A stretch of DNA of 29,649 nucleotides from a virus: positions 4,923-34,571 of IMG/VR virus record IMGVR_UViG_3300029448_000175. One strand, 5' to 3'. The notes below the pieces were generated by a model. That model searched no databases. It had not been told where the DNA came from and worked only from the letters and a program-made list of their open reading frames with translations. Position 1 is the first letter of the stretch. Each line of letters begins with the position of its first letter. Of this stretch, positions 437 to 20,196 are shown one piece after another. Position numbers and translations under genes: made by a program.

Positions 437-904
437 CTAATTATAATCTATATATGTTATTGTTACTTCTTCACCTTGTTCCAAAGCTTTAGCAATTTTA
501 GGATAAATCCTTTTGTAAGCGGCCGTAGAGCGACCAATGAACCCGTCTTCTTCGACCATGTTATTATTTTGGGTGTCCCCCACCAAGAGACAACCAGCGG
601 TATGCTCATCTGTGTTTCCGCAGTGTACAAGGATATAGTCAAAACCAGGAACGTCAACGATGTGAAGCATTCCTTTGTGTATATCTTGAAACCTTTTAGA
701 GTACTTAGCGTGAAAGCCACCAACGGTCCTAAACCGTATCTCATAAATACCAGCAGGAATCCTAGTCTCACTATAAACCTTATTGTCTCTGTATTCATCT
801 TCAAGTGTATAACATAAGAATGTCCTAACACCTTCGACTACAGAAAATAAAGCTCCTGACGTAGAGTCTCTACCGCTGCTAAACCTCAGTACTTCAAGTT
901 TCAT
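437..904 (-). CDS. DUF5675-family protein, possible L,D-transpeptidase-like cell-wall enzyme
   Basis: This 155-residue protein starts at an ATG directly abutting the TAA of the gene upstream. It shows the pattern I associate with DUF5675: an N-terminal strand with a TSGALFSV segment, a CYTLEDEYR segment (residues 31-39), an RIPAGIYEIRFR strand (48-59) and a C-terminal LVHCGN...HTAGCLLVG block (92-109). The last block, with His94, Thr102, Gly104 and Cys105, resembles the His...(Ser/Thr)-x-Gly-Cys active site of YkuD-type L,D-transpeptidases, so a cysteine enzyme acting on peptidoglycan is plausible. Its position after a holin-like gene fits a lysis or wall-entry role. No signal peptide is present, so it would need a holin or virion delivery to reach the wall. 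The family call is fairly secure; the catalytic role is inference. An opposite-strand frame at 365-817 is a shadow. Confidence 0.75.
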   Translation of the reverse strand: MKLEVLRFSSGRDSTSGALFSVVEGVRTFLCYTLEDEYRDNKVYSETRIPAGIYEIRFRTVGGFHAKYSKRFQDIHKGMLHIVDVPGFDYILVHCGNTDEHTAGCLLVGDTQNNNMVEEDGFIGRSTAAYKRIYPKIAKALEQGEEVTITYIDYN

Positions 905-2040: not shown

Positions 2041-5000
2041 CTAATCATGCAAGTGACATCTAGTCTTAGGTTTTTTAACCATGTTCTTACATCTAGAGCT
2101 ATCTCGTTTAATAAAAGTGCATCTAGTTTTAGATTTTTCTTTAGTTTCTTTTTTTTCTTTTTTTATCTGCTCTTTAATTTTCTCTCTACGTAATTGCTCT
2201 TTAGTTAGATACTTAGTATATTCGTTTTCTTTGCCTTCGTTAATAATTCTAACACGCTCTTCATTTTTACCAGGTCCTAAACCCCAGTTACTCCAACCCG
2301 CAGCCATTAGTATTCTTTGCCAGTTATAATAATCTTGATCTAAAGCGTTTTGTATGTTATTACCTTTTTTATAATATCTATTTAAAGGTAAGTTTGCAGT
2401 AGATTCTATAACTTGAGTTGACGCTTCTAAAAGAGGACCGTTTAAAGTTAAACCTTCTCGTTCTATAATTTTTTTATTTAACTTGTAAGTATTACCAGCG
2501 GCGTCTAACTTAGTAAACTTAGAGCCTATGGTTGGAGATATATTAAGTAGTCTTTCACCAACTTCGCTATAGTCAGCGCCGTAAGATTTACCTTCTTGCT
2601 TTATAAACTCTTGAACGCCTAGCCTAACACCGTTAACAACAGCACCTTGAATACCCATACCTCTTAAAAATGAATCAGCCGTAGTGTTAAGCATTTGTAA
2701 CTTTGATTGAGCTTTTAATTCATCGTCATCTGAGTTTGTTAGTAAAGCAAATGCTCCAGACTGTAAACCAGCAAATATTATTGATTGAATAAATCCATAA
2801 TAACCTATGTTACTAAGCTTTTGTGTAAGTGAGTTTTCACCATAAAAACCTTTATACCTGCCTTTTGATATATCTAAAACATTCTTCATCATAATTCTAT
2901 TCATCTGCATTGGCGTATTAGCAAATGGTAATATGAATCTACCTGCCAAAGTTGTTTGTTGCTTAGATATTAAATCTGCTCTACTAGACTGCTGAGTTCT
3001 TTCTGCTATAGCTTGAAAGTCTATAAACGCTCTACGCTCAGCTTCTGCTTTAGATAAGCCTTCTTTTAAATATTTATTAATAGCATTTCTATAGTATGTA
3101 GCGCCGCCAGTTGATATTGCAAAGCTATCCGCTATTTTAGTAGGTAAATATCCAGCTTTAAGTATTTTAGCTATAACTGCTTTTGCTGGGTTTTTACTAT
3201 TAGACGCGGCGGCGGCAAGCTCTGCTTCACTAACGTTTATTTCCAAGCCTTGACGTCTTTGCTTCAGCATATCAGAGTTCATGATGGTCATAAAGTCTTT
3301 CCAATACTGTGGCTGGTTGGCAAAAGCTTTAGCAGCCATGAGCGGGTTGTTAAACGAAGAGTTGATAAAGTTAACAGTAGATATTAGCTGTAAAGTAGCT
3401 GATCTAGTGTTGAAGTTCATGATAGTTCCAGTAGACCCGTTTAAATAGTTCATTAAGCGTCTACTTGAGCTACTTAAGTTTTCAGCTCTAGTTCTACCAG
3501 TCTCCATGCGATCAAACATATCTTCAATAGTTTCTCTCCAGTTTTTACCAAGCTTTGACTCCATTTTATTTAGATTAGCTTCAGTAAATATTTCGTTTTT
3601 AGCTTCTATAAAATCTTTTATGTATTTAGTCCTACCAATGCCTTCTCCTAAACCTTGTATTTCGCTAGCAATAGTTTCTCCATACCACTCAGCTGTAGGC
3701 TCTCTTAAACCGCCTTCTAATTTTGTAAGCTTAGCTACGTTATCAGCGTAAGCTTTTAGTTTAGGATTATTAACTATGTGTCTTATTAATTTGTTTTGCG
3801 TAGAAGCTGCTAAGTCTGGAACTTTGTACCCTGCTTTATTCCAAATATATATTCTCATAGCCATATCAGTGGTAAAATTGCTTCCTTCTACAGGTTTGTC
3901 TAACAGTTTGACAACATCTTTGTTTTTCTTGCGAAGAGACATATAGTCGTTAGTAATAGCCTGCCTAGCGTTATTAAAATCATTTATACCTCTTTCCCAA
4001 GGTTTTATAAGATTATCTTCAAACCACTTTTTATTTTCAATACCTTGCCTACCTTTGCCATACATGGGCTCTAGCAGTAACTCTAAATCAGCAGCTGTGT
4101 CAGGTACAAAAAACTTTCTACGATTAGCTTTTTTTCCTCTAATAGCAGCTTCAGCTTTTGTAAATACTTTTTTAGATTCTATACCTAATGAACTTTCTAG
4201 TATATCGTTTACTTTTTTATTAACGTCGCTAGTTTTGCTAAATCTTAACGCTTGTTGAACATCAGACTTAATATCTAACTGATTTAAAACATTTCTAACA
4301 GCTTTAACATTAGGTAAAGCATCATCTACGAAGTACATATCATTATAGCCTTCTGAGAATTTTTTAAGCATATACATAGCTTTAGCTTCGCCAGTACTAT
4401 TACCTAGACCAGTTATGTTCTCTAACGGTATTTCAACACCTTTTGACTTAAGCCAACTGTATATAGCTGGAGCAGACTCAGCTGGCCTAGCAGTAACAAT
4501 ATACATGTGCTCTGGTCCAAACTTGTTTAGTCGCTCTTTAAACTTTTTAAACAACGGTCCTTCAACGCCGCCTCTAACATTTACAAAATCTTTAAAATCA
4601 AAACTATAACCTTGTTGCTGTAGCTCTGGTCCTTTTATAGGCCATTCACCGCTACTTATTTTAATTGTTTCTTTACCTTTAGTAGCTATAATAAAGTTTT
4701 TACCTCTGTCTATTAAAGTTTCGTCAAAGTCAAAAAAAGATCCTCCTCTAGACTGTTTATTAGGCATACGACCAAGCTCCATAGCTTTATCATATATCTT
4801 TATGTTTTCTTTTATTTTCCTAAAGTCTTTAGAAAAGCTTAGAATTTTACTTGGAGCAGCTACCTTTGTAACGCTTGCTTGCTCAGCTAACAATGTTTCA
4901 TTAATTATTTCTGCAACTTTGTTTTTATTAGCTATATATGTGCTGGCTGATTCACCTGTGAAATGTACAACTTTTCTGTCTGGTCCAAACAATTTACCTT

Positions 5001-8000
5001 GACCAAACTTTAATATACGAAGCTCACCTTCCAAGCTAACCTTATTGTCGATCATTTTATCGCCAACTTTTATTTTAGCATCTAATACTTTGTCGGCTAT
5101 ATATTTAGGAGCCCAAAGCGTTCTGTGCCCATTGTTTATATTATCTAGTGTTATAGATTTGCCGCCAGAATATATATAAGATGAGCTTTCAGCATTTGTT
5201 GTAGCAGAAGCACCTAAATGCTCGTTCTTCCATTGAAGATCAGATATTGCTAGCTCTCTAGCTTCAGCTTTGTCTTTAGTCTCTTTTAATCTTACGTTAT
5301 ATCTCTCTTTGTACTCAGCGCATTGCTCCCAAGATTTATAATACTCTTGCAGTTGCTCGTTATACTTTGGGTTAGGTCTTTTTGGTAACTTTTTAGTTTT
5401 TGGTAAAAACTTATTTGGCTTAGCTAAACCTATTTGTCTTCCTTCTCTTAAATAAATATATTCAAAAGTACTCATAGCTCTCTTACCAGACACAATGTTA
5501 GTTTGTAAAGCACCATTTAATAATACAAAAGTATTATCTATATTTTCTTTAGCATATTCTTTTTGATACAAGTCGTTCATGTATTTCAACATATCATGAT
5601 TAGCCTTGTTTATATTTTCTATTCTAGCTCTAGCGTTTGCTAATATTTGTTCTTTAGCTTGGAGTGATGTTTCTCTACCTATAGACTCTAGCGTCTGCTT
5701 AACAAAGCCTTTCATTTCCATAGGCGTAGCGTTAACTAAGTTTTCAACAGCTCCTTCGCCAAGTAGTTTTGTCATATCAGCCTCCATTTTAGCAAGTTCA
5801 GCTGGAGTAAAAGATCTATTTCTAAGTTCAGCTCTTTGAGCTTCGTAGTCTTTAACTCTAATTGTACCTTTATAACCATCTTTTAATCCTAACGAAAACT
5901 CTATCCAAGCAGACTCTATAGCCGGGTGCATTTTTTTGCCTATAGCAAAGCCCATGTCAACATACTTTTGGCGAGTTGTCGGATCGTTTAGCTTCTTACC
6001 CCTATATATACCACCTTCTGTTAATTGATTTTTTATTTCACTAGGTGTAAACTTATCAGCTTTAATAGACTTTTGATATGATCCGCCAACAGTTAAAGTT
6101 TCGTTTCTATTAAGCATTAATGTTTCAACTAAGTCAACTACAGTTGGATGTTTCTCTCTAGCTACTTTTTCGTAGTTAGCTTTACCAAAGCTTTCTATTA
6201 AGTCTCTAACTTGCAGTTTTATAGCACCTATTTGTACGCCCTGCTGCATTAAATCAGCTACAGACATACCTGTTTTTTCATTGACGCTAAATAAATACGG
6301 TGATCTACCGTCTGCTAAATGCTTAAACGCTTCGCCTAGTGGATCTAGCTTGGATCTCATAGCCTGATTTTCAAAAGCTCTAACATATTCAACTAACATG
6401 CTTTTCAATGGTCCACTCTCTGAGGCTTTAGTAATAGCTTCTAACGGCTGCATGAAAGTTTCTTTATTCATACCTTTTATTCTAACAAAAGGTTTTCTAC
6501 CTGAAGGAGCAGCAGCTATACCAAATGTTTCTTGAGTGGCTCTTTGAGTCATCTCGTTGTAGTAAGGTTTTAAACCACCTATTCTACCCATTGTAGCTTC
6601 ACCGGTTATAGTAAAGCCTTGAGGCAAAGCAGCATCAAACATTAGCCAGTTATCACCTATAGATTTTTTTAGTATAGCTATTTCGTTGCTGTTTAACTGT
6701 TGTTTTGTTTCTATTTGCTTTACAATACGATCAGCCATTGCTTTATCACCAATAACTTCTCGTCCTTTAACCTCAACTCTTTTGCCAACTACAAAAGACT
6801 CCACAAGCTCTGATAAGTATTTAGGATTAACTTGCTTATAGCTACCTGGTACTATTTCAGCTTCAGGTTTACCAGATCGTTTTTGAGCCTCAACACTTTC
6901 TGTTATTTCTTTGTATACTTTCTGGGTAGCCTCTCTTACTCTAGGGCCAGCACCTTCAGCCATGTTTAGTAAAAGCTCATTACCTTGCTTAACCATACCA
7001 GGCTTGTCTGCTATTTGCTTTTCTTTACCCGTACCTTCAACTACTTCTTGTATTACACCTAGTCTTTTAGCTAAGCTTTGAGCTCTTAAAAAACCTCTAT
7101 TTACTATAAACTTTTCTAGCTCTTGCTTGCCTTTATATTCTCTTATAACCATTTGCTCTAGCTCAGATCTCAAAGACTCTTGAAAGTTTTGTCTAGCTAA
7201 GTCTTTAGTATCTCCTAGAGGCTTTGTAAAGTCTTCGGGTATAGGATCAAACAGTCTTTTAGTCAAGCTTGTTGTTAGTCTACCTGTTGTCTCACTAATA
7301 TTATCTTTTATTCTTTGAGAAGCTCTTTGGTAAATCGCATCGCTTTCTAATAATTCAAAAGCGTTCAAACCTTTTTTCTCTGCAAAAGCGTCTGCGGCTT
7401 TTTTTATTTCATTTATTTTATTTAAGTCAGCGGCAACTTTTTCTGCTTGTTCTTTAGTGATGTTTTTAGACTGAAGCATTTCGCCCTTAACATCACCTTC
7501 TCTAGCTTTTTTACCAAACTCAATAATATCTTTACGTAAACCTTTTTTTAAACTACCACGCTGTAACGCTTGCATAAATAAAAATATGTTCTCACCGTTT
7601 ATATCTGTTTTAGCAAAGTTAGTTCCAAATCCAGCTTTTGAAAGAACAGGATATAATACATCAGATATTTTTTGACCAGTAGTTGCATTGTATGTGATCT
7701 CTCTGTTTTTAACAGCATCAGACCAAGCCATTAAATACTCTTCGTAGTATTCGTTTTTATTTCTAGTACCGTCAGGATTATAGTTTCTTTTAACTCTTTC
7801 ATTAATGATTTGTTGCTCTTGAGCTGTTAAAGAGTTTCTAAATTGATCTATTATTTTTATACCTTCATTGCTTATTTTACCATCAGGCCCCTTTAAAGAT
7901 TTTCTAAGTATAGCGTGACCTAACTCATGCAACGGATCACCCAAACTTCTAGTTTCTTTTATTCTTTGCTTATTTAAGTATATAATGTCTTTAACAGGAT

Positions 8001-11000
8001 CATAAAAACCAGAAACTTTTTTACTTTCTGCAGCCGCAGACTCTAAGCTATATTTACCACCCATGTATAGAGCGGCGGCTATACCATCACTATTAACGAC
8101 GCGAAAACCTTTTATGCCCATTTCTAAAGCAGCTGTTCTTGCTAGCTCGATCTCGCCTTTAATTATCCGGTCAAACACAGCGTCAAAAGACTTAGTTTCT
8201 ACATCAATTTTATCTGTTATTTCTTTTAGCTGCTCGTTTATTTTATTTATTTTTTCTTTTACAACACCTTCTAGCTCAGGTCTTTTTTGAACAGATCCTT
8301 GTAGATTATCTCTTTTATTTTTTACTTTTAAATATTGATCCATAAGATCAATAATTTTTTCTCTCTGCGGGCCTTGTATTCGCTCTGCGTTTAAAGACTC
8401 TACTATATTTTCAAAGTTCTTTTTTCTTAAATCAAACAGCTGTCCTTCAATAGAATTTTTACGAACACCAAGCTCTGCTTTTATATAATCAAACTCGTAC
8501 TCTTTTAAATTAGCCAACTGCTCTTTTTCTTTAGCCGTAAGCTCAACTCCTTGCTTTATTTTGTTAAGAAGCACAGACTGATTAGATAAAAATTGCATGT
8601 AATTACCGTGCGACTTAGCTGTTTCAACAGCTGTATTGTATTCGTGTAAGTATTGCAGCTTGTTTCCGGCTTTTCTAATGTCACTTATCTGTTGTTCTTG
8701 TTGCTCTTTTCTTAAGTTTTTGTTAGATTTTATTTCATTTATTTTGCTTTTAACAGCGTTATCAATAGCCTCTGGCTCAGCGCCATGCTTTAAGCCTAAA
8801 AGTCTACCAGCTTTATCAGTGCCAGGTAATTTGTTAGACAGTCTTAAAACATCTCTTTGCATCGCTTTGCCAAACTTACCTAAAGTTCTAGGTCCGCCAA
8901 CCATAAGCATGCCTACATAGTTTTCTACTAGGTGATGCGTAAAGTCTTTTTCTTCAAGTTGCTTAGCTTCAAAAAACTTTCTATCGTTTATTAGCTCTCT
9001 GTAATACTCGTCTACGCGCTCTGCAAACACTAACGTTGCAGTACCAACACCAGCCGATACATTAGCACCCATAAAAGTGCTTAATGATTTTGATCTATTA
9101 GCATTGGCTATTATAGGCGTTAATATAGGTATTTTAGTAGCCATAGTTTTTTTAATCAAACTTTGAGCCATAACATTACCAGCACCTAAAGCTCCTGGAA
9201 AAGTTAAATTAACATCTCCAGTTTGATCATTAAAAACAAATCCTTCCGCATTAAAAAGCTGTCCACCAACCACGTCAGCACCTGCTAATCTTACTATTTC
9301 GTCCGCCGCGCCTAAGCCTATTTTAACCCCTTTTTCATACGCTTTACTTTTATTGCCTCTAAGCATGTACTTTTGTATAGCGTTTTTAGTAACAGCCATT
9401 TGTTTTTCAAGCGAAACAGCTTTAGTTGTAGGCTCAATCATGCCTCTACCAGCTTTTATATACTTTGTAGTAGTACCAACTGGCAGTTTTTTAGTAGCAT
9501 ATATACTTAAAACTAAAGGCGTTAAATCTGTGGCTACATTTCTACCGCCTTCCATAACTGTTCTTACCTCGCTAGATCCAGGTCTAAGAACCTGATTTTT
9601 ATCAAACGTAGTTCCAGTAGCTTCACTGTACCAGTCAGAAAATATTTGAACTGTTTCATCGTTGCCTTCAGTAAAACCTGCGGTTTGCCCAAACAAACCT
9701 TCAGACAAATTATCTAAACCTTCAAGAGTAAAGCTTTCTTCTTCTAGCGGGGCTAAGTTTGCTTTTATTTCAATAGCTCTATTCGCTATTTTAAACTTAC
9801 TTAAAGTTTCATTAAATCTTTGAGCTATTTGAGATTCTCCTGGAAGCGTAGTTAAGTTAGCAGGAAGCTTGTTATTGTCATATATAAATTCAAGAAGTTT
9901 TATATCATCGTAATAAGTGTCTTCTGCACCCGCTAAGTTTCTCGCCGCTCCACCTAAAGTTTCAAAAGCGCTTTTAGCGCCTTTAATTGTTAAAGCTTGT
10001 CTGTTTATATAAGGCGATATTCTTTCATCTTTGACTGGTCTTTTTCCTTCAAACTGAGCGGCTAAGCCACCTAGCTCTACCAGTTCGTAATATAAATTTA
10101 ATCTTGATTGCTCTAGCTCGTCTAGTTGAAAGTCATCTGCGTCTGTTTGCGCTTGTTCTTCGTATTCTTCCTGTATAAAACCTGTAGTACTACCATCTTC
10201 GTTAAATAGCGGCACATAGCCTTTGCTTTTAAACTTAGCGTCTCTTTGTTTTATTAACTCATCTTTAACTGGACCATCAGCTAAAGTTTTTATTTTTTGG
10301 TTTAGCTCAGCTATATCTTTGTCAACGTCTAAGTCTAAGTAGTTTATACTAATGTCTTTTACTTTTTCGTTAAGTTTATTTTTATCACCTTCAGCAGTTT
10401 CTAAATCTTGCTGGTAGCTAGATTGCCAAAGAGAATTTATGTATTCTCTCTGAGCTCCAAAACGCCTATCTGCACGCTGCCAATAGCCGTCAAATTCATC
10501 GCTTACAAACGGTATAGTTGTCGCTGATCTATTTTTACCATCTATAGTTGGTCTAGTGTTAGGCATTTTAGTTTTATCTAAGCTAAAAGTTTCTTGGCTA
10601 AAATCTAGAAACAACAATGGCCCATCAGCTGAAGCGTCAGCTTTTTCCTGAGCTAATATTTTATTTTCTTTTTGTTTTTTTGTTTTTTGTATACGATCAA
10701 ATTCTTCTGGAGTTATCTCTTTATCTATGTTAGACATTTGAATAGAAGCTCCAACTCCACCTGTAGGATCAACAGCTAATGATAAATCACCAGATACATC
10801 TAAAGGGTTGAAAGACTTATAGCTTTTGGATTCCGATAAAAAATCTACCGGCTTGGATGCCGTAACGTTTGACTCCGCAGGTGCATCCACTGTCTGTGGA
10901 GTCGTTGGCTTTTCCGCGACTGTTTCTTTTTCTTTTTGTTCTTGCACAACCTTAACAGCTTTGTCGCCATGTATTTTTAAAAAATCATCTTTTCTGTGAG

Positions 11001-11043
11001 GAGCAACATCGTAAGGCTGCCCATCTACCATATATCTTTCCAT
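2041..11043 (-). CDS. Giant 3,000-residue virion/ejection polyprotein with metallopeptidase-like, HAD-like and Cys3His motifs
   Basis: This protein is likely carried inside the capsid and delivered to the host, as argued from its size, its place after the muzzle gene, and its resemblance to giant proteins of marine phages. The first 30 residues (YMVDGQPYDV...DFLKIHGDKAVKV) look like a recurrent N-terminal tag of such proteins, followed by a disordered Lys/Glu/Thr stretch. Residues about 610-675 are hydrophobic and Gly/Ala-rich. About 745-970 is coiled-coil-rich. Residues 1039-1043 are HELGH, with a candidate third zinc ligand in EEYLMA (Glu1101/1102), as in zincin peptidases. Residues about 2100-2245 carry HAD phosphatase motifs: FDFDETL (Asp2105, Asp2107), IVTARP (Thr2184), Lys2221 and FVDD (Asp2240/2241). 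Residues about 2680-2720 hold a TQQSSRADLISKQQ segment, and about 2745-2768 is membrane-like. The end has Cys2975, Cys2985, Cys2996 and His2999. It starts 6 bases after the preceding stop. No RNA polymerase DxDGD motif was found. Confidence 0.75.
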   Translation of the reverse strand: MERYMVDGQPYDVAPHRKDDFLKIHGDKAVKVVQEQKEKETVAEKPTTPQTVDAPAESNVTASKPVDFLSESKSYKSFNPLDVSGDLSLAVDPTGGVGASIQMSNIDKEITPEEFDRIQKTKKQKENKILAQEKADASADGPLLFLDFSQETFSLDKTKMPNTRPTIDGKNRSATTIPFVSDEFDGYWQRADRRFGAQREYINSLWQSSYQQDLETAEGDKNKLNEKVKDISINYLDLDVDKDIAELNQKIKTLADGPVKDELIKQRDAKFKSKGYVPLFNEDGSTTGFIQEEYEEQAQTDADDFQLDELEQSRLNLYYELVELGGLAAQFEGKRPVKDERISPYINRQALTIKGAKSAFETLGGAARNLAGAEDTYYDDIKLLEFIYDNNKLPANLTTLPGESQIAQRFNETLSKFKIANRAIEIKANLAPLEEESFTLEGLDNLSEGLFGQTAGFTEGNDETVQIFSDWYSEATGTTFDKNQVLRPGSSEVRTVMEGGRNVATDLTPLVLSIYATKKLPVGTTTKYIKAGRGMIEPTTKAVSLEKQMAVTKNAIQKYMLRGNKSKAYEKGVKIGLGAADEIVRLAGADVVGGQLFNAEGFVFNDQTGDVNLTFPGALGAGNVMAQSLIKKTMATKIPILTPIIANANRSKSLSTFMGANVSAGVGTATLVFAERVDEYYRELINDRKFFEAKQLEEKDFTHHLVENYVGMLMVGGPRTLGKFGKAMQRDVLRLSNKLPGTDKAGRLLGLKHGAEPEAIDNAVKSKINEIKSNKNLRKEQQEQQISDIRKAGNKLQYLHEYNTAVETAKSHGNYMQFLSNQSVLLNKIKQGVELTAKEKEQLANLKEYEFDYIKAELGVRKNSIEGQLFDLRKKNFENIVESLNAERIQGPQREKIIDLMDQYLKVKNKRDNLQGSVQKRPELEGVVKEKINKINEQLKEITDKIDVETKSFDAVFDRIIKGEIELARTAALEMGIKGFRVVNSDGIAAALYMGGKYSLESAAAESKKVSGFYDPVKDIIYLNKQRIKETRSLGDPLHELGHAILRKSLKGPDGKISNEGIKIIDQFRNSLTAQEQQIINERVKRNYNPDGTRNKNEYYEEYLMAWSDAVKNREITYNATTGQKISDVLYPVLSKAGFGTNFAKTDINGENIFLFMQALQRGSLKKGLRKDIIEFGKKAREGDVKGEMLQSKNITKEQAEKVAADLNKINEIKKAADAFAEKKGLNAFELLESDAIYQRASQRIKDNISETTGRLTTSLTKRLFDPIPEDFTKPLGDTKDLARQNFQESLRSELEQMVIREYKGKQELEKFIVNRGFLRAQSLAKRLGVIQEVVEGTGKEKQIADKPGMVKQGNELLLNMAEGAGPRVREATQKVYKEITESVEAQKRSGKPEAEIVPGSYKQVNPKYLSELVESFVVGKRVEVKGREVIGDKAMADRIVKQIETKQQLNSNEIAILKKSIGDNWLMFDAALPQGFTITGEATMGRIGGLKPYYNEMTQRATQETFGIAAAPSGRKPFVRIKGMNKETFMQPLEAITKASESGPLKSMLVEYVRAFENQAMRSKLDPLGEAFKHLADGRSPYLFSVNEKTGMSVADLMQQGVQIGAIKLQVRDLIESFGKANYEKVAREKHPTVVDLVETLMLNRNETLTVGGSYQKSIKADKFTPSEIKNQLTEGGIYRGKKLNDPTTRQKYVDMGFAIGKKMHPAIESAWIEFSLGLKDGYKGTIRVKDYEAQRAELRNRSFTPAELAKMEADMTKLLGEGAVENLVNATPMEMKGFVKQTLESIGRETSLQAKEQILANARARIENINKANHDMLKYMNDLYQKEYAKENIDNTFVLLNGALQTNIVSGKRAMSTFEYIYLREGRQIGLAKPNKFLPKTKKLPKRPNPKYNEQLQEYYKSWEQCAEYKERYNVRLKETKDKAEARELAISDLQWKNEHLGASATTNAESSSYIYSGGKSITLDNINNGHRTLWAPKYIADKVLDAKIKVGDKMIDNKVSLEGELRILKFGQGKLFGPDRKVVHFTGESASTYIANKNKVAEIINETLLAEQASVTKVAAPSKILSFSKDFRKIKENIKIYDKAMELGRMPNKQSRGGSFFDFDETLIDRGKNFIIATKGKETIKISSGEWPIKGPELQQQGYSFDFKDFVNVRGGVEGPLFKKFKERLNKFGPEHMYIVTARPAESAPAIYSWLKSKGVEIPLENITGLGNSTGEAKAMYMLKKFSEGYNDMYFVDDALPNVKAVRNVLNQLDIKSDVQQALRFSKTSDVNKKVNDILESSLGIESKKVFTKAEAAIRGKKANRRKFFVPDTAADLELLLEPMYGKGRQGIENKKWFEDNLIKPWERGINDFNNARQAITNDYMSLRKKNKDVVKLLDKPVEGSNFTTDMAMRIYIWNKAGYKVPDLAASTQNKLIRHIVNNPKLKAYADNVAKLTKLEGGLREPTAEWYGETIASEIQGLGEGIGRTKYIKDFIEAKNEIFTEANLNKMESKLGKNWRETIEDMFDRMETGRTRAENLSSSSRRLMNYLNGSTGTIMNFNTRSATLQLISTVNFINSSFNNPLMAAKAFANQPQYWKDFMTIMNSDMLKQRRQGLEINVSEAELAAAASNSKNPAKAVIAKILKAGYLPTKIADSFAISTGGATYYRNAINKYLKEGLSKAEAERRAFIDFQAIAERTQQSSRADLISKQQTTLAGRFILPFANTPMQMNRIMMKNVLDISKGRYKGFYGENSLTQKLSNIGYYGFIQSIIFAGLQSGAFALLTNSDDDELKAQSKLQMLNTTADSFLRGMGIQGAVVNGVRLGVQEFIKQEGKSYGADYSEVGERLLNISPTIGSKFTKLDAAGNTYKLNKKIIEREGLTLNGPLLEASTQVIESTANLPLNRYYKKGNNIQNALDQDYYNWQRILMAAGWSNWGLGPGKNEERVRIINEGKENEYTKYLTKEQLRREKIKEQIKKEKKETKEKSKTRCTFIKRDSSRCKNMVKKPKTRCHLHD

Positions 11044-11049
11044 AATATT

Positions 11050-12459
11050 TTATTTTGCAAAATCAGTGTTAACGTTTGGATATGTTTTTATTTTTACGTC
11101 TTTAAGCATTTTAAGATACGCGTTAGGTAATCCTGTAGAGCTTGATTGACTCACCCTTTCAATAAGCTGTTCTTTATCAACTATAAGTCTACTTTGGTTA
11201 GATAAAGTAAGAGGATTATCATTTTCTAATATTTCAAACGTGCCATCAGGTAATGGTCTAGCAGAAAGTTTAGTATTAAATGGAAATTGTATAACATCTT
11301 CGCCCTCGTTGAAATCACGCACGAACGTGTTTAGTTTTTGCTTTTGTACATCAGTTAAACCACCAGTTTTGTCCTTATCATTTTTATCAACTTCTTTGGC
11401 TTTGATTACAGTTTGAGCGCTAGAGTCAGCCATATCAAAAAGATAATTAGTGAAAGCATCGCTTAAGTTCTCTGTTTTTAAAGTGTCTAACATAGCGTCT
11501 AAAAGCTCATTTTTTTCAACACCTTCTGGCATATTTTTAACCTTAGCATACTCAGGATTATTATTAATCATATTTAACAAATAGTTTCCTGCGAAACTTA
11601 CATCTTCACCGGTTGTTCTCGCAGCAGAAAAACCACCAAATATTATTGGCCTAAGAGAAGAGTAATCTTTTTTAGTTATAGCGGCTATTTCAGAAAAAGT
11701 TTGTCTTCTAGTAGCGTCATTCCACTTGCCTTGCCGTGCGAGTTTAGAAGCGTTAGCTATAGCCTCTGCTAGCTCAGTCTCATATTCTAAGTCTACTTTG
11801 CTAGTAGTCATTAATTCTGGTATTGCTATTAGTTTACCTTCATCGTTGTAATAGCCACCTATTTTTTGTTCGCCATCAATTACTGGGTCCCAAGTAACTT
11901 TGTCAGGAAAAGATCCGTCTAGCAAATCGCTAGCTACTTTCGACTCTAACAAAGTTGGAAAAGGATCTGGATTAGCTTGCGCTTGTTGAGCTTGAGTAAC
12001 TAGATTATTGTAAATATCTCTATGCTCTTTGTATACTTGAAAGTTACTTTTTATTTCACCTAATCTTTCGCCGTTTTTTATTTTTTTATTTTTGCTAACA
12101 AAAGGATTTTTAGACTGCTTAATTAAGTCATAAGCTTCTTTATTATTTCTTTCTATCGTAGCTGCTAAATTTTTATTTACATCAGCGCTAAGAGATAAGT
12201 CTGACTGTATTGTTTTTTCAGACAAGCTTTTAGCATATTTTTGTCTGTCTTTTATTTCTTGACTTATAGGTTGACCTGTGCCTTTTAAAAATTGATTATA
12301 AGCAGTGTTAGTTTCATCAATAGCTGTTTGAGCAACTTCTTCTACAGTAGACAACGTTTGAGTTAAATATCTATTAAACCCAGTGCCTTTATAAGCATCG
12401 TAGCTAGCTTTTGTTTCTGCTAGTTTAGATAATGATTTTTGTAAAAAGTTTAATGACAT
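11050..12459 (-). CDS. Internal virion/cargo-like protein, 469 residues
   Basis: The protein begins MSLNFLQKSLSKLAETK. I chose the ATG at 12459-12457 because it lies 7 bases after the stop of the upstream gene and has the AATAATAAAATT leader seen before other genes here. The longest open frame starts at 12522 but would overlap the upstream gene by 56 bases and adds 21 residues with no supporting leader. The product is soluble, mostly helical and charged, without cysteines, membrane segments or recognisable enzyme motifs. A mixed segment at about residues 195-240 (VTWDPVIDGEQKIGGYYNDE) may be a small beta domain. Lying between the glycine-zipper protein and the giant protein, it fits the second member of a three-protein ejection or cargo set. 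I do not recognise a named family. Confidence 0.6.
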   Translation of the reverse strand: MSLNFLQKSLSKLAETKASYDAYKGTGFNRYLTQTLSTVEEVAQTAIDETNTAYNQFLKGTGQPISQEIKDRQKYAKSLSEKTIQSDLSLSADVNKNLAATIERNNKEAYDLIKQSKNPFVSKNKKIKNGERLGEIKSNFQVYKEHRDIYNNLVTQAQQAQANPDPFPTLLESKVASDLLDGSFPDKVTWDPVIDGEQKIGGYYNDEGKLIAIPELMTTSKVDLEYETELAEAIANASKLARQGKWNDATRRQTFSEIAAITKKDYSSLRPIIFGGFSAARTTGEDVSFAGNYLLNMINNNPEYAKVKNMPEGVEKNELLDAMLDTLKTENLSDAFTNYLFDMADSSAQTVIKAKEVDKNDKDKTGGLTDVQKQKLNTFVRDFNEGEDVIQFPFNTKLSARPLPDGTFEILENDNPLTLSNQSRLIVDKEQLIERVSQSSSTGLPNAYLKMLKDVKIKTYPNVNTDFAK

Positions 12460-12471
12460 AATTTTATTATT
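12460..12471 (-). promoter_or_regulatory. AT-rich leader that decides the start of the 469-residue gene
   Basis: The minus strand reads AATAATAAAATT directly before ATG at 12459, matching leaders of the genes at 2023 (AATAATAAAATA) and 11043 (AAATAAAATATT). It lies just past, and partly overlaps, the end of the upstream gene. It supports the shorter start over the longer frame beginning at 12522. Confidence 0.5.
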
Positions 12472-13384
12472 CTGTAAAAACGTATTGACTACCAGTATAC
12501 GGCCCTGGATCTGGAACATCACTCTGTGGTAATCCTTGAGAATTTAATTGAGGACCAAAGTTAGAGCCACCGAAAGCGCTAGCAACGCTACCTAAAGAAC
12601 TCAATCCTTGGTTAAGTAACTGCTGATTACTTTCCATCTGAGCCATACCAGCAGACGTATCGCCGGCTAGTTGTTGAGCTTGGTAACCTAAGCCTAAAGC
12701 TTCTCTTTCATCTTGAGCTCGATCAACTCTAAATTGACCTTCAGCACTAAACTGTTGAGCCTGCATAGCTCCTTGCGCTATTGCTCTATCAATATCCATT
12801 TGAGCTCTACCTATTTGCATTTGAGCTTGTCTAGCTTGTTCAGCGCCTTGAGCCTTTAATCTTTGATTTTGAGCCTCTTGATTGCCAATGTCAGCTGCAA
12901 TTTGTTGTCTAACTTGAGCATTTTGCCTAGCTAAAAGACCAGCAATACTAGCTACAGCGCCAGCACCTCCAGCTCCAGCTCTAGCAGTTTGTAAAATCGC
13001 AGCTTGAGACTCTTCAGCCATTTGTCTTTGATAATCTGCAGATTTTAAATTAACAGTTAAATCTTCAAATTTATTCTCTGTAGATATTTGAGATAAAGGA
13101 TTTTCAAGCCCAGCAAACGTATTGGTAATACCAGCGAAAGGATTTGATATTTCTCTACTCACAAAAGCGTCTATCTTGTTTTGAAAAGCTCGTTGCTTTT
13201 CGTCAATATCTTCTTGTATATCATCATTAGCTTTGCCGGTAAAATATCCTCCGATACCACCAATAACCGCGCCGGCTAAAGCACCGTATGGGCCTAACGT
13301 AGCTCCAGCTGCCGCGCCTTGTGCAGCACCTCCAAGTATATCTCCAGTGTCTTTAAGCGGGCTATTTGTTTCTCCGTAGTTCAT
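12467..13384 (-). CDS. Glycine-zipper, Gln/Ala-rich internal virion protein (ejection/pore candidate)
   Basis: This is a 305-residue protein. Residues about 17-50 are a Gly/Ala-rich hydrophobic stretch with regular small-residue spacing (GAAAGATLGPYGALAGAVIG), the glycine-zipper type that inserts in membranes. A second Gly/Ala-rich hydrophobic stretch lies near residues 134-150. Residues about 150-225 are a long Gln/Ala/Arg helix. The C-terminal tail is Gly/Ser/Pro-rich. Small proteins of this composition lie directly after the tail hub or muzzle gene in podovirus-like and crAss-like genomes and serve as ejected or internal proteins that help DNA cross the envelope; T7 gp14 is a functional analogue only. 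No catalytic motif is visible. It starts 29 bases after the muzzle stop with a TAAAAGAATAAA leader. Confidence 0.65.
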   Translation of the reverse strand: MNYGETNSPLKDTGDILGGAAQGAAAGATLGPYGALAGAVIGGIGGYFTGKANDDIQEDIDEKQRAFQNKIDAFVSREISNPFAGITNTFAGLENPLSQISTENKFEDLTVNLKSADYQRQMAEESQAAILQTARAGAGGAGAVASIAGLLARQNAQVRQQIAADIGNQEAQNQRLKAQGAEQARQAQMQIGRAQMDIDRAIAQGAMQAQQFSAEGQFRVDRAQDEREALGLGYQAQQLAGDTSAGMAQMESNQQLLNQGLSSLGSVASAFGGSNFGPQLNSQGLPQSDVPDPGPYTGSQYVFTE

Positions 13385-13413: not shown

Positions 13414-16400
13414 TTATTTACTACTTTCAATAGCGTTCAGAGCTGTAGCAAAAAGCTCAGATTTGTTTTTATGATCGTTATTTCTCCACATAGCTTTAGC
13501 ATAATAGCCTTTCACACCGTCTATGTTTCCACCTTGTGATATGCTTTGAGATTCTTGAATAAAAGCAAATAATTGAGCAGGTGGGTTTACAAAAACATTA
13601 TTGTTTAAAAAATTATTTTGTAGCGCGTTGACAACATTGTTTCCTGTAGCTGGATTAAACGGATCAGTTAAAGTTACTAATGCTTGATTATTGCTAGCGT
13701 CGATGTTTAATAAGAGACCCATAAATTGATAATTGTTAAAAAACACAGTATCGTTAGGTCCTTCTTCGACTATAGCAAGAAACAAGTCAGATATAGAGCC
13801 ATTATCATCTTGTGCAACCGCGTAAGCAAATAAATCAGAAACTTGTTCAAATTGAATAATTATAGCGCTTGGAGAGCCGTCTGGATAAGTTTGACTTACT
13901 TGTACACTTTCAACTGAGCCTAAACTTATAGTTGTTTCTCCATTTACTACTGGATCATTGAAAAACTGTTCGCCTTGAACAAATTTTTCTTGTACATACT
14001 TGTTAAAGTTATTATGCCATTTGTTCTCTTTATTCTTAAAGTTTATAGACATGCCTTGCTCTAAGTCAGTGACAATATCATCTAACCACCAACCGTCTTT
14101 GTCAACCTCTGTAGAAATAACATCATCACTATAATCTGATATTATCCTAGCTTGAGATCCTTCGTAATTTACATAAGTAAAATCTTTAACCATGCCTGGA
14201 TTTTCGTTATACACAACTGCGACTCTAGGCTGATGAAGTCTAAGCATTGATCCAGTACCATCTGCATTAAGCCCAGAACCAAATATACCTTCATAAGCTC
14301 CGTAGGGTGAGATTAAACTGTCATGCTCGTAATGTCTTGCTTGAAACGGTGAAAAGTACTTGTTGTTTATACTGTAGCCTTGTGCAGAGGCAACATAAGT
14401 TCTGAAAGAAGTCCAAACATTTAAGCCTTCGTCCCAAGCCACTGTTATTCCTTCTACAAAATCTGTAGCCGGAGTTGACCCTGTTTCAGAATACTCTATA
14501 GAAGGTATAGCGCGAAATCCTTCGCTAGATATTAAATATTCGTTTTTATCAACATCATAGCTACCAAAAATATAATCTGCATTTTCAGCAGACGCTCCTG
14601 CAGATGCCCTAGTAAAGCTTAAGTTTGTTTTAAAATAAGAGTCCATACCAGCGTATGATATAGCTGTTAGCCCGTCTTTAGAAAGTCTAAGAACTACGCC
14701 TCTTTTAGCATCAGCAAAATAAGATCTAAAACCATAATGAGCAAACGATTCTGGATTAGTGGATATGCCATATTCACCATCAAAGGCAACGGACTGACCT
14801 AAAACTCTATTAGTAGCTACTAAATCAGGTTCAGAGTCTGCCTTAAATATAGCTTCTTTGTCTGCCAATACTTTTAGCACTTTATCTTCACATAAAACTA
14901 ATAGATCGTTTGATCTAGCAAAAAGCTTTTGAACAGAGCCGTGATCTGGGTTAAATCTTTTAGTAATACCTAAAGCTTCTATAAATTGATTAGTTTCATT
15001 AAATTGGCTGTAAGAGTTATATATTCCAGAAAATATCAGAGATCCACTCTCTTGTACTTCTGCATAGTCTTCATACGTAGTAGATGCCTTCACGCCTTTC
15101 TGTATTCTAGCGCTATTAAAACTGTTTCTAGCAGTAGATATTTCTACTCCGTTACCAAACGTAAAACAATTGTACCAAGGCAAAGCTATTGGCAAAGCTA
15201 TGTTGTTTGTTAAATTAAAGTTAGAAACATGAGTATGTCTTCTAACTATAACGCTGTTAGAGTTAACAACACCGCCAACAACTGTAACGTAAACGTGCTC
15301 TCCAACGTTATGTCTATCGCCTCTATGCTCTAATATTCTTAAAGTTAAAGTAGATGGAGCTGGAGGAGCTGTGAGCGTAACAGCTTGATCTAACACTATC
15401 TCTGTAAATATATCGTCATTTTGGCTGTGCCTTCCCGATAAAGTTTTAACTGCAGTAACTTTAATTGGCTGAAAAGCTGTTTCATCTAAAATACCAACAC
15501 CACCATCGCCGTTTGTGTCAACACCATATTCAGTAGGAAAGAAAGTGTCTAATGGATTTACGATAGCATTAGATTGAAGAGTGCCATCAAAGTTAGCTCC
15601 AGGCGTATAAACAAAAGCTTCAACCATTCTACCTACTTTAATAAACTGCTCGTCCGTTTCATCGTCCATTACAATTGGATAAGCTTGAGAAGCTTCAAAG
15701 TACAAATCAGAGTCGTAATTAGGCTTTGGTCTTGTTTCAAAAACACCTTGAGTTTTTGGAGTGTTAGGACCAGGCAGCGGGCCTACTGGATTATTTATTA
15801 TTAAAGGTCTATCTGTTTTTACAAAAACAAAAAACTTTCCGTCAAGTCTTTCTGTATCCGTCAACGCATCAATTATAGCTTGTGGAGCTTCGTTTTGTAT
15901 TCTTTGAACTTCATACTCTAGAGAGTCGTTATCAGGCTCATAACCATACGTAATATTGGTCAAAGCTGGATCAGGTGGACCAGCTATTCTATGTGCTCTT
16001 TTTTGTATTAATATATCGCCCTCTTGTATTTTATTTCTATCATTAGAGTTAAAAGCTAAAACAGATAAAGCTTCAGATGAGTCATTTGGCGTAGCTATAG
16101 GAAGGTCACTGTTATCGTCTTTAACAAAGTGAAAAGCTTCTTCAAGACTTGCCACGTGGTAATCAAGAGAAGTGTCTTTAACAAAAAACTTATAAGACTT
16201 AGCCCAAGACGGATGTGGATTTTTAACAGTAACTTTTATTCTATTGCTTTTTTTAGCTTGCTCTGGAGTTACTTTTAATATAGCCTGCTTGTTAGTTAAC
16301 ACTGGCGTTTCTCTACCATACTCGTCTCTATACACAATACCAACCTGATAAGATCTATAAGACTTTATAGACTCTAAAGGAACTCCAAAGTTTGCATTTA

Positions 16401-19400
16401 TTTGATTAGCATAAGAATCTTGAAAAGCATCTATTACATTATCTTCTGGTATAATACCAACTACTATACTGTTTCCATCAGCATCTAATATATCTGTTTG
16501 AGTTTGATTTATATAATTAAACAATTCAACAGATAGATTTACTTTTATATCTATTGGATTTTCACTATTAATATCTACTTCTTGAAGATTATAATCTTTT
16601 AAATAATTTCCGTATATAACTCTATTAGCTACAACTTCTTGAGCTAAAGCTGTTCTAGGCACAGAATCAAAAGGTCTTAACAATTGATTTGGATCTAAAG
16701 TTAAACCTAATGTTTCAGCTTTAAAATTATGCACGCCACTGTAAGATCCGTTAGCTGGTAGTAAATATTCGTTGTCTCTAAAGTCGTACTTTTTTATAGA
16801 GTATATGTTATTAGCTTCTTCGCTCTTCATAAATAGCTCTATAGCTTTAACGTCTTTAGGCAAATTTTTAGGCCTCCAATCTAAAAGATCTAAGTTTTTA
16901 ATTTCATTTATTAAAGATATATAGTAATTAGGCCAATCGATACTTTGGTTTAGCGTTCTCCAAACTACAGTAGTAAAAGGAGCTAAACCAGAATATTCAT
17001 TGTCAATATATTGATACCTATATGAAAACCTAAGCATTTGATCTTTAAAAGCTTTTTCATCGCTAACTTCAGAGTCAGCCACTAAAGAAGCTAAGCTAAT
17101 AGACCATACTTGTGGTAGCGGTGGCCCGTAGTACATTGGAAGGTTATTTGCACCATAAGTTTTTGGCGCGTTAGGAATAGATCCTTCAACAAATCCAAAG
17201 CCTTGGTTCAAATCAAAATAAGGTGATTTTTTAGCTAAATGATTACGCTCCATCATGGCGGCATTTTTAGTGACATCACCAAATCCTACAGGCTGCAAAC
17301 CGCCTCCATCAACGGCATTTTGAATATCTATATGCTTGTTACTTAAATCTGCTCTAAGAGAGGTTTCATGAGACTTTTTTAAGTTATTATCTATTATCTC
17401 TATGGTAAATATATATTGACTACCTAAAGACTTAGTAGAAAAGAAAGAAGGAGGTAATCCGTTTTCACCGTTTACATCAGAGCCATCTAGTATAGGTTTT
17501 CCTACAAGTTTTTCGTTTAGAAATATAAATTTTTCAGTTAAATCATTATAGGCAACCCCGTTGCAATCGATCCAAGAATCTTGTATTGTTTGAGATCTTT
17601 GGCCGTTTTCGTCTACAGTAGAAATAACAACATCGTTGTCACGTATATTAACTTGCTCTATTTTTACTATTCTAGCTCTAACTTTATCACCGTAGCCATC
17701 ATGTCTTCTGGATTGAACTTCATCGTATGGGTTATTGTATAGTACAGACTCATTGGTAAAAACTTGACCTCCTTGATCTCCAGATTCTAACACAACTGGT
17801 TCTATATTAAAATCAAGCCCGTTGCTTTTAAAGTGACTTGTTTGTCCAGCTTCGTGTATTGTATTTTTTTCAACAATATAATTTTCTCCAGCTAAATTTT
17901 TGTCTGAGTATTGACCTACGCTTTGGCTACTTATAACTGTGTTGCCTTTACCTTCTAAGATAATAATATCGCCAACGTTAAAGCCGTGTGGTGGAACTAC
18001 AAATCTACCAGGTCCAGTTGGTCTTAATAAATTATTTTCGTTAAAGTCAAACCAGCCGTTGTGTATATATTTGTCTGCTTCTGCTTGAGTTATACCCCAG
18101 TAATTACTCATAACATTAAATCCTTGCTCGCTAGCTATCGCGTTTACTTGAGATAAAAGACCGCCTCTATGGAATGCTTTTCTAATAGGGTGAGAGCCGC
18201 TGCTAACCACAGATCCCGCGACAGCAGCATTAATACTCATCACTGGATTTGTAGCATCAAAATATTCTAACAATTCGTAATCACGCGGATCATTAGTGCC
18301 TGGCAAAATTCTTGTTCCAGAAGTGCCGTAATAGTTATTGTAAAGATCAAGCATGGTAGAGCCGTCTTCATTAATAGAATCTGGATCAAAAGTTTGTGTA
18401 CTAACGTCATCTAAAAACGCCGAAGGTATAGCTCCTGGAACAGTTAAAGCGCCAAGACCTAAGCCTAAGTTACTACCAGGTATATAATCATTATTTGGAA
18501 AAGCAAAATTGCTATGTTCAGTAGCTAGAATTCTAAAATTAAGAACGTTGTCAGGACCTTCATTTTCACCAAGTAAAGCGTAACCATTTGAAGGGTGAAA
18601 TCCACCGCCAAATTGAGTATAAAGACTACCTGGGCTAGGCATAAAAACATTGCTATTACCCTGATCACCAGCTCCAACATATACTGAATAAGCGTTTAGT
18701 TCTTGAAGTGAGCTTGTGAAAAGCCAAGATGAATAAGCAAAAGCATCTGGAACAGACAAAGTGCAGCTTAACTTTCTTGATATAAGACTAGCGTCGTTGC
18801 CTGGAAGAGCAGGATCTCCTATTAGAAAAAAGTCTCCATATATTTCTTCATAAGAGTTATTTAACTCTGCTGTATTAAAGCTAATCATTGGAACATCTAC
18901 ACCTAAAACATCGTTAACATTACCGCCAACCTGGTGTTCAAAGAAGCCACCTTCATTAGCGAACGCTACCGCAAATTGAAGCTGCTTACCGCTAGACCAT
19001 ATAGGGTGTATAGGGAAAGGATGCGTCATCACTCCAACTTTAGGACCTACAACATTTTGCTCTGTCTGTATTACGCCTACGTCGCTAAGAACTTTCAAAT
19101 GCTCTTCTGGATTAGGTCTTATTACGGTGCAGTTAGATTCTATAACTCCGCCAGTACCCGTGTTTATATTGCCAAAGAAGTCGTAGTAAGGTATATTTTG
19201 GAAACCTGCAGCGTTGTCAGGATTAGGCATTATTAACCTAGTATGAAAATATCTTCTATCAGAAATCCAGTTAGGATAAACAGCGACTGAGTTAGAAACA
19301 GTGCCATCTTTTGATCTACGTATATTTATTTTCTTAGGCTCATTGTTGCCATCAGTAAAAAATATCAAGCCATCAAAAACGTTTACTCCTGTTATATATC

Positions 19401-20196
19401 CTTTTTGTTGTTGATGATTAAAATTTAATATTCTTTTAGATCTAAATCTAACATAATTAAGCGGAGCTAATATGTTAGCATTAAAAGATCCGTTTAAATC
19501 TTTTAAAAATACTCTATTGTTAACTCTATCTACTCTATCAACATATATTTCTCCTAAGTTTTCGTTTGCAGGAGCAGCAACTGTTTCTTGCTGTATAAAA
19601 CCTATTATGCTGTCCATCTGGAAAACTCTCATGTCTTCTCTGATGTCTAAATCTTGAAGCGTAGGCAATATTAAATACGTTTGATTGTTTTCATCTACTT
19701 CTACCGCTTGAACTTCTGATTGTATTTCATAGATGTCGTTAAAAACTAAATCATAACTTTGAGTTCTAGCGTCGTATTCGTATATAGAATCTGCTTTAAT
19801 AGTGTTTTCTACAAATCCAGTGTAGTCTGTTTCTTCGTTGTAGTTAGGACTTTGAGGAGTGTTATCTGCAAAAGGATAATTAGTTCTAGCAGAGTTTGTA
19901 ACTAAATGATATGCTAGGTCTGTAGATCTGTCTACGGTAGTTCCTACTATACTAGATCTAGTTATATTATTTACAAAAGGAGGATATGGTCCAAATGTTC
20001 CAGGCTGCAAAAATGAGCCATCTAAAGCAAATATTTCACTATTAGCTCTTACAGTTTCTAAAGATCCTTCATTACCTTCAGAAGAGCTACTAACTCTAAT
20101 ATTAAAAGCTTCTCTATAGTATCCTTGACCAACTAACCTTTCATCAAGGTCAAGATTCATACCACCTTTAACAAAAGTTCTTTTTAATTCAGCCAT
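13414..20196 (-). CDS. Muzzle/stabilization-like giant tail protein, 2,260 residues
   Basis: This protein probably forms the distal tail (muzzle) below the ring proteins. Its N-terminus (residues about 7-36, FVKGGMNLDLDERLV then a YYREAFNIRVS segment) is the signature I associate with crAss-like and uncultured marine phage stabilization proteins. Other recurrent blocks are a GIVYRDEYGRETPVLT strand pair (about 1280-1300), KSYKFFVKDTSLDYHVA (about 1333-1350), LTDTERLDGKFFVFVKT and, near the C-terminus, a DGWWLDDIVTDLEQG...KWHNN motif. The product is beta-rich, rich in Asn, Asp, Gly and aromatics, and has no membrane segments. Residues 1560-1571 read DTNGDGGVGILD, a dockerin/EF-hand-like calcium loop. 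The start follows the stop of the 417-residue gene by 2 bases. Gene identity is confident; the exact structural role rests on family memory and position. Confidence 0.8.
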   Translation of the reverse strand: MAELKRTFVKGGMNLDLDERLVGQGYYREAFNIRVSSSSEGNEGSLETVRANSEIFALDGSFLQPGTFGPYPPFVNNITRSSIVGTTVDRSTDLAYHLVTNSARTNYPFADNTPQSPNYNEETDYTGFVENTIKADSIYEYDARTQSYDLVFNDIYEIQSEVQAVEVDENNQTYLILPTLQDLDIREDMRVFQMDSIIGFIQQETVAAPANENLGEIYVDRVDRVNNRVFLKDLNGSFNANILAPLNYVRFRSKRILNFNHQQQKGYITGVNVFDGLIFFTDGNNEPKKINIRRSKDGTVSNSVAVYPNWISDRRYFHTRLIMPNPDNAAGFQNIPYYDFFGNINTGTGGVIESNCTVIRPNPEEHLKVLSDVGVIQTEQNVVGPKVGVMTHPFPIHPIWSSGKQLQFAVAFANEGGFFEHQVGGNVNDVLGVDVPMISFNTAELNNSYEEIYGDFFLIGDPALPGNDASLISRKLSCTLSVPDAFAYSSWLFTSSLQELNAYSVYVGAGDQGNSNVFMPSPGSLYTQFGGGFHPSNGYALLGENEGPDNVLNFRILATEHSNFAFPNNDYIPGSNLGLGLGALTVPGAIPSAFLDDVSTQTFDPDSINEDGSTMLDLYNNYYGTSGTRILPGTNDPRDYELLEYFDATNPVMSINAAVAGSVVSSGSHPIRKAFHRGGLLSQVNAIASEQGFNVMSNYWGITQAEADKYIHNGWFDFNENNLLRPTGPGRFVVPPHGFNVGDIIILEGKGNTVISSQSVGQYSDKNLAGENYIVEKNTIHEAGQTSHFKSNGLDFNIEPVVLESGDQGGQVFTNESVLYNNPYDEVQSRRHDGYGDKVRARIVKIEQVNIRDNDVVISTVDENGQRSQTIQDSWIDCNGVAYNDLTEKFIFLNEKLVGKPILDGSDVNGENGLPPSFFSTKSLGSQYIFTIEIIDNNLKKSHETSLRADLSNKHIDIQNAVDGGGLQPVGFGDVTKNAAMMERNHLAKKSPYFDLNQGFGFVEGSIPNAPKTYGANNLPMYYGPPLPQVWSISLASLVADSEVSDEKAFKDQMLRFSYRYQYIDNEYSGLAPFTTVVWRTLNQSIDWPNYYISLINEIKNLDLLDWRPKNLPKDVKAIELFMKSEEANNIYSIKKYDFRDNEYLLPANGSYSGVHNFKAETLGLTLDPNQLLRPFDSVPRTALAQEVVANRVIYGNYLKDYNLQEVDINSENPIDIKVNLSVELFNYINQTQTDILDADGNSIVVGIIPEDNVIDAFQDSYANQINANFGVPLESIKSYRSYQVGIVYRDEYGRETPVLTNKQAILKVTPEQAKKSNRIKVTVKNPHPSWAKSYKFFVKDTSLDYHVASLEEAFHFVKDDNSDLPIATPNDSSEALSVLAFNSNDRNKIQEGDILIQKRAHRIAGPPDPALTNITYGYEPDNDSLEYEVQRIQNEAPQAIIDALTDTERLDGKFFVFVKTDRPLIINNPVGPLPGPNTPKTQGVFETRPKPNYDSDLYFEASQAYPIVMDDETDEQFIKVGRMVEAFVYTPGANFDGTLQSNAIVNPLDTFFPTEYGVDTNGDGGVGILDETAFQPIKVTAVKTLSGRHSQNDDIFTEIVLDQAVTLTAPPAPSTLTLRILEHRGDRHNVGEHVYVTVVGGVVNSNSVIVRRHTHVSNFNLTNNIALPIALPWYNCFTFGNGVEISTARNSFNSARIQKGVKASTTYEDYAEVQESGSLIFSGIYNSYSQFNETNQFIEALGITKRFNPDHGSVQKLFARSNDLLVLCEDKVLKVLADKEAIFKADSEPDLVATNRVLGQSVAFDGEYGISTNPESFAHYGFRSYFADAKRGVVLRLSKDGLTAISYAGMDSYFKTNLSFTRASAGASAENADYIFGSYDVDKNEYLISSEGFRAIPSIEYSETGSTPATDFVEGITVAWDEGLNVWTSFRTYVASAQGYSINNKYFSPFQARHYEHDSLISPYGAYEGIFGSGLNADGTGSMLRLHQPRVAVVYNENPGMVKDFTYVNYEGSQARIISDYSDDVISTEVDKDGWWLDDIVTDLEQGMSINFKNKENKWHNNFNKYVQEKFVQGEQFFNDPVVNGETTISLGSVESVQVSQTYPDGSPSAIIIQFEQVSDLFAYAVAQDDNGSISDLFLAIVEEGPNDTVFFNNYQFMGLLLNIDASNNQALVTLTDPFNPATGNNVVNALQNNFLNNNVFVNPPAQLFAFIQESQSISQGGNIDGVKGYYAKAMWRNNDHKNKSELFATALNAIESSK

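Follow-up and report, generated by a model that had tools for sequence, protein, structure and literature searches.

A 3000-residue protein encoded in the window, by which we mean the whole 29,649-nt stretch of DNA analysed here (positions 4,923 to 34,571 of IMG/VR record IMGVR_UViG_3300029448_000175 and most of that 34.6-kb virus record), joins a predicted zincin metallopeptidase domain to a predicted phosphatase domain of the HAD fold. We consider it probable that this giant is a podoviral polyvalent ejection protein. A helical C-terminal module (C-module) would deliver it, the HAD domain would work inside the host, and the zincin would either process the chain or cleave proteins of the host. 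Polyvalent proteins with zincins are already known, and so is the N4-type ejected polymerase with an HExxH motif and two partners; what appears to be new is the HAD component in a polyvalent-type ejection protein, which is widespread in marine viromes. The source is probably a marine Bacteroidetes phage of the flavobacterial, short-tailed type.

The gene at 2041-11043 is a single open reading frame of 3,000 residues, as the initial annotation had it; the strand, absent from that annotation, is the minus strand (11043 to 2041), which codes for nearly all genes of the window. Along this strand come, in turn, the genes for terminase, portal, a scaffold-like protein, the major capsid protein, ring and tail proteins, a muzzle-like protein of 2260 aa, a glycine-zipper protein of 305 aa, a protein of 490 aa and the giant. 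Like polyvalent proteins, the giant is encoded in a virion gene cluster that also holds portal and terminase. The main features are as follows:

26167..28584, minus strand: portal protein (phrog_6547, 8.5e-141)
13414..20196, minus strand: muzzle-like tail protein, 2260 aa (by position and size)
12467..13384, minus strand: putative glycine-zipper ejection protein, 305 aa (weak PF13488 and PF10439 matches; weak matches to internal virion/pilot PHROGs)
11050..12522, minus strand: putative second ejection protein, 490 aa, immediately upstream of the giant gene
2041..11043, minus strand: giant ejection/polyvalent protein gene, 3000 aa, ATG start, last and largest of the ejection cassette
8344..11043, minus strand: lineage-specific N-terminal region, residues 1-900 (BLAST aligned no more than 0-2 of the 80 relatives over most of it)
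7399..8331, minus strand: predicted zincin metallopeptidase domain, residues 905-1215 (AlphaFold2, VIA-align and family alignment A6)
7915..7929, minus strand: HELGH, residues 1039-1043, with putative zinc ligands H1039 and H1043 and base E1040 (family conservation)
7738..7740, minus strand: E1102, which would be the third zinc ligand and lies on the second conserved helix (Glu in 72/73)
4813..7398, minus strand: lineage-specific region, residues 1216-2077, mostly without relatives beyond the closest phages
4240..4752, minus strand: predicted HAD phosphatase-fold domain, residues 2098-2268, in the effector slot (AlphaFold2, VIA-align, weak PF11019 and phrog_415 matches)
4321..4731, minus strand: HAD motifs, D2105/D2107 (4731-4723), T2184 (4494-4492), K2221 (4383-4381) and D2240/D2241 (4326-4321)
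2269..4116, minus strand: conserved helical C-module, residues 2310-2925, common to other polyvalent and internal virion proteins, with a hydrophobic helix at 2750-2768
2047..2121, minus strand: C-terminal Cys3His motif, residues 2975-2999, DUF5763-like, optional in the family

Where sequence upstream of the giant is available, almost every relative has an ORF of ~345-1200 aa in the place of the 490-aa gene. Counterparts of the glycine-zipper gene were matched in 52 of 80 loci, and those of the muzzle-like gene in 13 loci that extend far enough upstream. The nearest portals are those of flavobacterial podoviruses and of an uncultured spring-water phage. No tRNAs were found in the window, and an Rfam scan gave no match. 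A 155-aa phrog_1501 protein (window 437-904, minus strand) is far more conserved than its neighbouring genes, with 63-68% identity to ORFs in 10 related loci.

Searches with the giant protein alone against Pfam, PHROG and PDB returned nothing significant, no Pfam polyvalent domain rose above threshold in the window protein itself, and relatives were therefore needed. Neither the whole protein nor its HAD segment had a tblastn match among 50,697 phage records, and the C-terminal segment matched only Tenacibaculum phage Gundel_1, weakly. In IMG/VR, 185 loci carry a relative of the HAD domain, 80 of which were retrieved for analysis, and relatives of the C-module occur in at least 583 loci. The giant ORFs of the relatives (63 complete) are 2135-4311 aa long, with a median of 2943, and the zincin lies about 800-1380 residues ahead of the HAD domain. 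A scan of GTDB genomes with the HAD domain produced matches in two MAG contigs only (Sphingobacteriales and Maricaulis bins), so that no firm host can be named.

The conservation map of the giant has two islands. In the zincin (about 1000-1210), BLAST alignments extend to at most 21 of the 80 relatives, while the second island, from residue ~2080 to ~2925, was covered by 72-80 of the 80; apart from the zincin, the N-terminal 2,000 residues are hypervariable. Similarity breaks off abruptly at residue ~2080: loci L003-L006 are 62-75% identical to the window protein from ~2071-2080 onward and have nothing detectable by BLAST before that point. The N-terminal part is common to two contigs only (82-83%), both of which end inside the gene, one of them (L001) just where the HAD domain begins. 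Among 80 loci found by the C-module alone, the HAD profile was present in 78; one other is truncated, and the last, L171 (IMGVR_UViG_3300025543_000126), has in the HAD slot (ORF residues ~1340-1540) an ART-PolyVal (ADP-ribosyltransferase) domain (PF18760, E 2e-5, a match below the gathering score). On the strength of the breakpoint, the loci found by the C-module and the swap in L171, the HAD domain behaves, at the level of sequence comparison, like an effector unit that can be exchanged while the C-terminal chassis stays the same.

The chassis itself extends beyond this family. Along the C-module, Foldseek against viral models (BFVD) gave 52 matches at E <= 0.001, which include proteins annotated as large polyvalent protein-associated, ART-PolyVal, internal virion protein D and the Gundel_1 structural protein. 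The C-terminal metal-binding motif that the initial annotation pointed out is present, spelled C2975-x9-C2985-x10-C2996-x2-H2999, but of the 70 relatives whose 3' end is intact only 27 have it, and it is therefore accessory. PF19067 (DUF5763) scored above threshold in relative L028 (1.4e-10, 40.9 bits); it was not reported for the C-terminus of the window protein.

The HEXXH motif of the zincin was correctly located at 1039-1043, where it reads HELGH, and the proposal that an EEYLMA segment supplies the third zinc ligand also agrees with the family data: the segment is at 1101, and its conserved Glu is E1102, found in 72 of 73 aligned zincin regions (the giant of L020/L022 is the sole aligned family member without it). 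In a full-length set not selected by motif, HEXXH precedes the HAD domain in 71 of the 73 relatives whose N-terminus is complete, as compared with a chance expectation of 1.5% of shuffled N-termini; the other two, L040 and L045, have HEXXXH (HEVLGH, at positions 946 and 978 of their giant ORFs). In alignment A6 HEXXH is invariant (73/73), this set having itself been picked by HEXXH.

A zincin fold was predicted at the expected position. The AlphaFold2 model, built from a 73-sequence alignment (pLDDT 84.9), has a three-stranded sheet (strands 75-79, 108-111 and 116-120 in model numbering), HELGH on helix 132-146 and E1102 on a later helix, 197-208; this is the layout of polyvalent MPTases, with a three-stranded sheet, an HEXXH helix and a further Glu helix. 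The best VIA-align match was moderate, to the lethal factor peptidase domain (Z 6.6, about 170 residues), as was that to Certhrax (Z 5.4); Iyer et al. 2017 tie polyvalent MPTases to the lethal-factor fold (PMC5512222). Foldseek with the zincin model found no match in PDB at E <= 0.001, and a profile search of PDB sequences with the zincin alignment gave one weak hit to a zincin of the thermolysin family, aureolysin (E 0.13).

As to what the zincin would cut, mean column identity is 13% in its region, 64% in the HAD domain and 51% in the HAD domain plus C-module. The fast divergence of the zincin outside its catalytic residues would fit lineage-specific cut sites, such as expected of a maturation protease that cleaves only the giant itself, while particles assemble or once the protein has been ejected, and leaves host proteins alone. 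That practically all members whose N-terminus is complete have the zincin points the same way, as do the autoprocessing proposed for polyvalent MPTases and the processing of P1 DdrB before packaging (PMC5512222). Still, rapid divergence fits host targets in an arms race too, and related giants, the N4 vRNAP for example, are packaged unprocessed although they have an MPTase (PMC5512222). We give a purely maturational role a little short of an even chance. The further suggestion that the peptidase clips host proteins, and not the giant itself, is unsupported. The term polyprotein, used in the initial annotation, was not borne out; nothing indicates cleavage of the 3000-aa protein, and we dropped this reading.

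The HAD domain is the better preserved of the two. Motifs I-IV are present in order with the catalytic residues at the positions first assigned to them, and all six are identical in 81 of 81 sequences, as is R2186 of the TAR motif. Motif I reads DFDET in the window protein and DFD[EDQ]T across a wider set. AlphaFold2 on residues 2078-2965 (71 sequences, pLDDT 77.8) predicted a HAD fold where it was expected, followed by helices. Rows of the VIA-align comparison were almost all HAD proteins, whereas Foldseek with the HAD model found no PDB match at E <= 0.001 and a profile search of PDB sequences with the HAD alignment found no HAD entry. Far stronger conservation of this domain than of the rest of the giant suggests, as far as sequence can tell, a substrate common to many hosts.

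That the substrate is a nucleic-acid end, in line with the earlier idea of repairing DNA or RNA ends, finds modest support. The best VIA-align match is the T4 Pnkp 3'-phosphatase (Z 10.3, rmsd 2.4, 120 residues), with a lead of only 1-2 Z units over the next HAD phosphatases. PHROG 415 (polynucleotide kinase, phrog_415) is the PHROG matched by most HAD members, weakly (46 of 56, best 3.1e-5); Pfam DUF2608 (PF11019) is weakly matched by 55 of 56. No kinase Walker A motif was found in the giant protein. Set against the Pnkp match and the PHROG assignment is the possibility that the domain dephosphorylates proteins or small molecules (nucleotides, sugars, signalling nucleotides) among host targets. 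Ceg4, a HAD effector from Legionella, heads the PDB rows in Foldseek (prob 0.97, E 0.27); in the VIA-align comparison Lem4, NagD-like and acid phosphatases follow at Z 7-9; and HAD members also weakly match phosphoheptose isomerase and other families. We regard a protein or small-molecule substrate as a serious contender, somewhat under an even chance; on the models at hand, 3'-phosphorylated nucleic-acid ends are the best-supported candidate, far from proven.

Could both domains be inactive relics, kept as folded packing or scaffold units only? Some giants of the same slot, gp101 of Cellulophaga phage phi40:1 and gp127 of phi13:2, work with neither enzyme motif, which would be compatible with this. 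Relics lose their catalytic residues first, and here these residues are invariant while the surrounding sequence changes freely; loss of activity in both domains is thus very improbable.

The evidence on virion location comes from proteins of the same slot. In phi40:1, the corresponding cassette gp97-gp101, including the last large gene, is annotated from experimental MS/MS virion proteomics. The initial annotation had named virion proteomics as a check, and the outcome speaks in its favour: the slot protein gp101 (1691 aa) is recorded in virions, but it has neither HEXXH nor the HAD motif and no detectable C-module, so the MS/MS data back the slot and not the HAD-type giant itself. Same-slot proteins are annotated as 'structural protein' in Gundel_1 and the elemo phages. 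We take it as probable that the particle carries the giant and ejects it into the host. A late-expressed enzyme acting inside the cell and outside the virion would be hard to reconcile with the gene's place in the structural cassette, the detection of the equivalent phi40:1 product in virions, the 'structural protein' annotations and the matches of the C-module to internal virion proteins, and we think it most unlikely.

Among known systems the closest in architecture are the polyvalent proteins (PMC5512222), whose commonest domain is the zincin MPTase, HEXXXH forms included. Like them, the giant is a very large single chain with unrelated enzyme domains in one polypeptide, has a zincin in which HEXXH (or HEXXXH) is joined by a Glu from a later helix, is encoded among virion genes and has a C-module structurally common to proteins annotated as ART-PolyVal and LPD. 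A polyvalent, virion-type protein joining a zincin to a HAD domain, as had been proposed, is thus supported by relatives and by structure prediction. What sets it apart from that survey is its domain of the HAD phosphatase fold; the survey's main text nowhere uses the words HAD superfamily, haloacid, hydrolase, nucleotidase or phosphatase, and our literature search turned up no paper that describes HAD domains in phage proteins delivered by injection.

The ejected N4 vRNAP (gp50; 3,500 residues, also with HExxH) and its partners gp51 and gp52 (PMC12633501) offer a second parallel, a protein of ~3,000-3,500 residues with HExxH that is encoded with two smaller ejection proteins. In contrast to gp50, the giant has a HAD domain, and its phages are flavobacterial-type podoviruses, not Schitoviridae. 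No Pfam or PHROG match to an RNA polymerase domain was found in the giant, whose folded regions are 905-1215 and 2078-2965 only. T4 Pnkp shares the HAD fold of its 3'-phosphatase domain, but the family has DxDET/DxDDT in motif I, not DxDGT, no P-loop kinase is fused to it, and the domain is embedded in a virion-type giant. Gundel_1 gp074 (Pachyviridae; L011:15109-22554), annotated as a structural protein, is likewise the last gene of its cassette, with an HEXXH zincin (HEFGH there) and a C-module homologous by profile (about 1e-12); it differs in having no HAD motif and, at residues 896-966, a weak GNAT acetyltransferase-like match. Zincins therefore occur in more members of the slot than HAD domains. 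In Crassvirales phicrAss001 (PMC10172136) the genes of the cargo proteins likewise follow the muzzle gene, and their products are ejected together with the DNA, a likeness of gene order; the crAss001 cargo is RNA-polymerase related.

Taken together, gene order, conservation of catalytic residues, predicted folds, the modular boundary and the domain swap are observed, and we infer ejection, catalysis, substrates and processing. The giant would be the last of three ejection proteins, and the largest, in a flavobacterial-type phage with a short tail. The particle would hold it, in the head or the tail, next to its two partners, the glycine-zipper protein of 305 aa and the protein of 490 aa, and would eject it before the DNA or along with it. 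The helical C-module (2310-2925) may be the common chassis by which such proteins are packaged, cross membranes or are delivered. The HAD domain, catalytically intact as judged by its residues, would then dephosphorylate in the host cytoplasm a substrate shared by many hosts: nucleic-acid 3' ends, as in T4 Pnkp, are the best-supported guess, with nucleotides or phosphoproteins as alternatives. The zincin could release domains by self-cleavage or cut host proteins.

A bolder version is that hundreds of uncultured marine phages bring in with the virion a Pnkp-like 3'-phosphatase fused to a zincin, both on the shared delivery chassis, so that healing of nucleic-acid ends begins with injection, before phage gene expression. 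We think this doubtful; if true, it could heal, for instance, RNA cut by host anticodon nucleases, or broken ends of phage or host DNA. Hundreds of uncultured marine phages do encode versions of the protein, and a large family of marine phage ejection proteins, so far without a name, is now defined. Its most conserved segment, in a hypervariable protein of 2,000-4,300 residues, is an intact phosphatase-fold domain, and the question of which phosphorylated molecule a phage must remove in the first minutes of infection becomes testable with one small recombinant domain.

The family's largest giants, 4311 aa, occur in two contigs (L020/L022) and have the motif HETGH. A 3859-aa giant in the same slot of MW202828.1 (L008:741-12320), annotated 'reticulocyte binding/rhoptry protein', has HEXXH twice, at residues 1615 and 2500.
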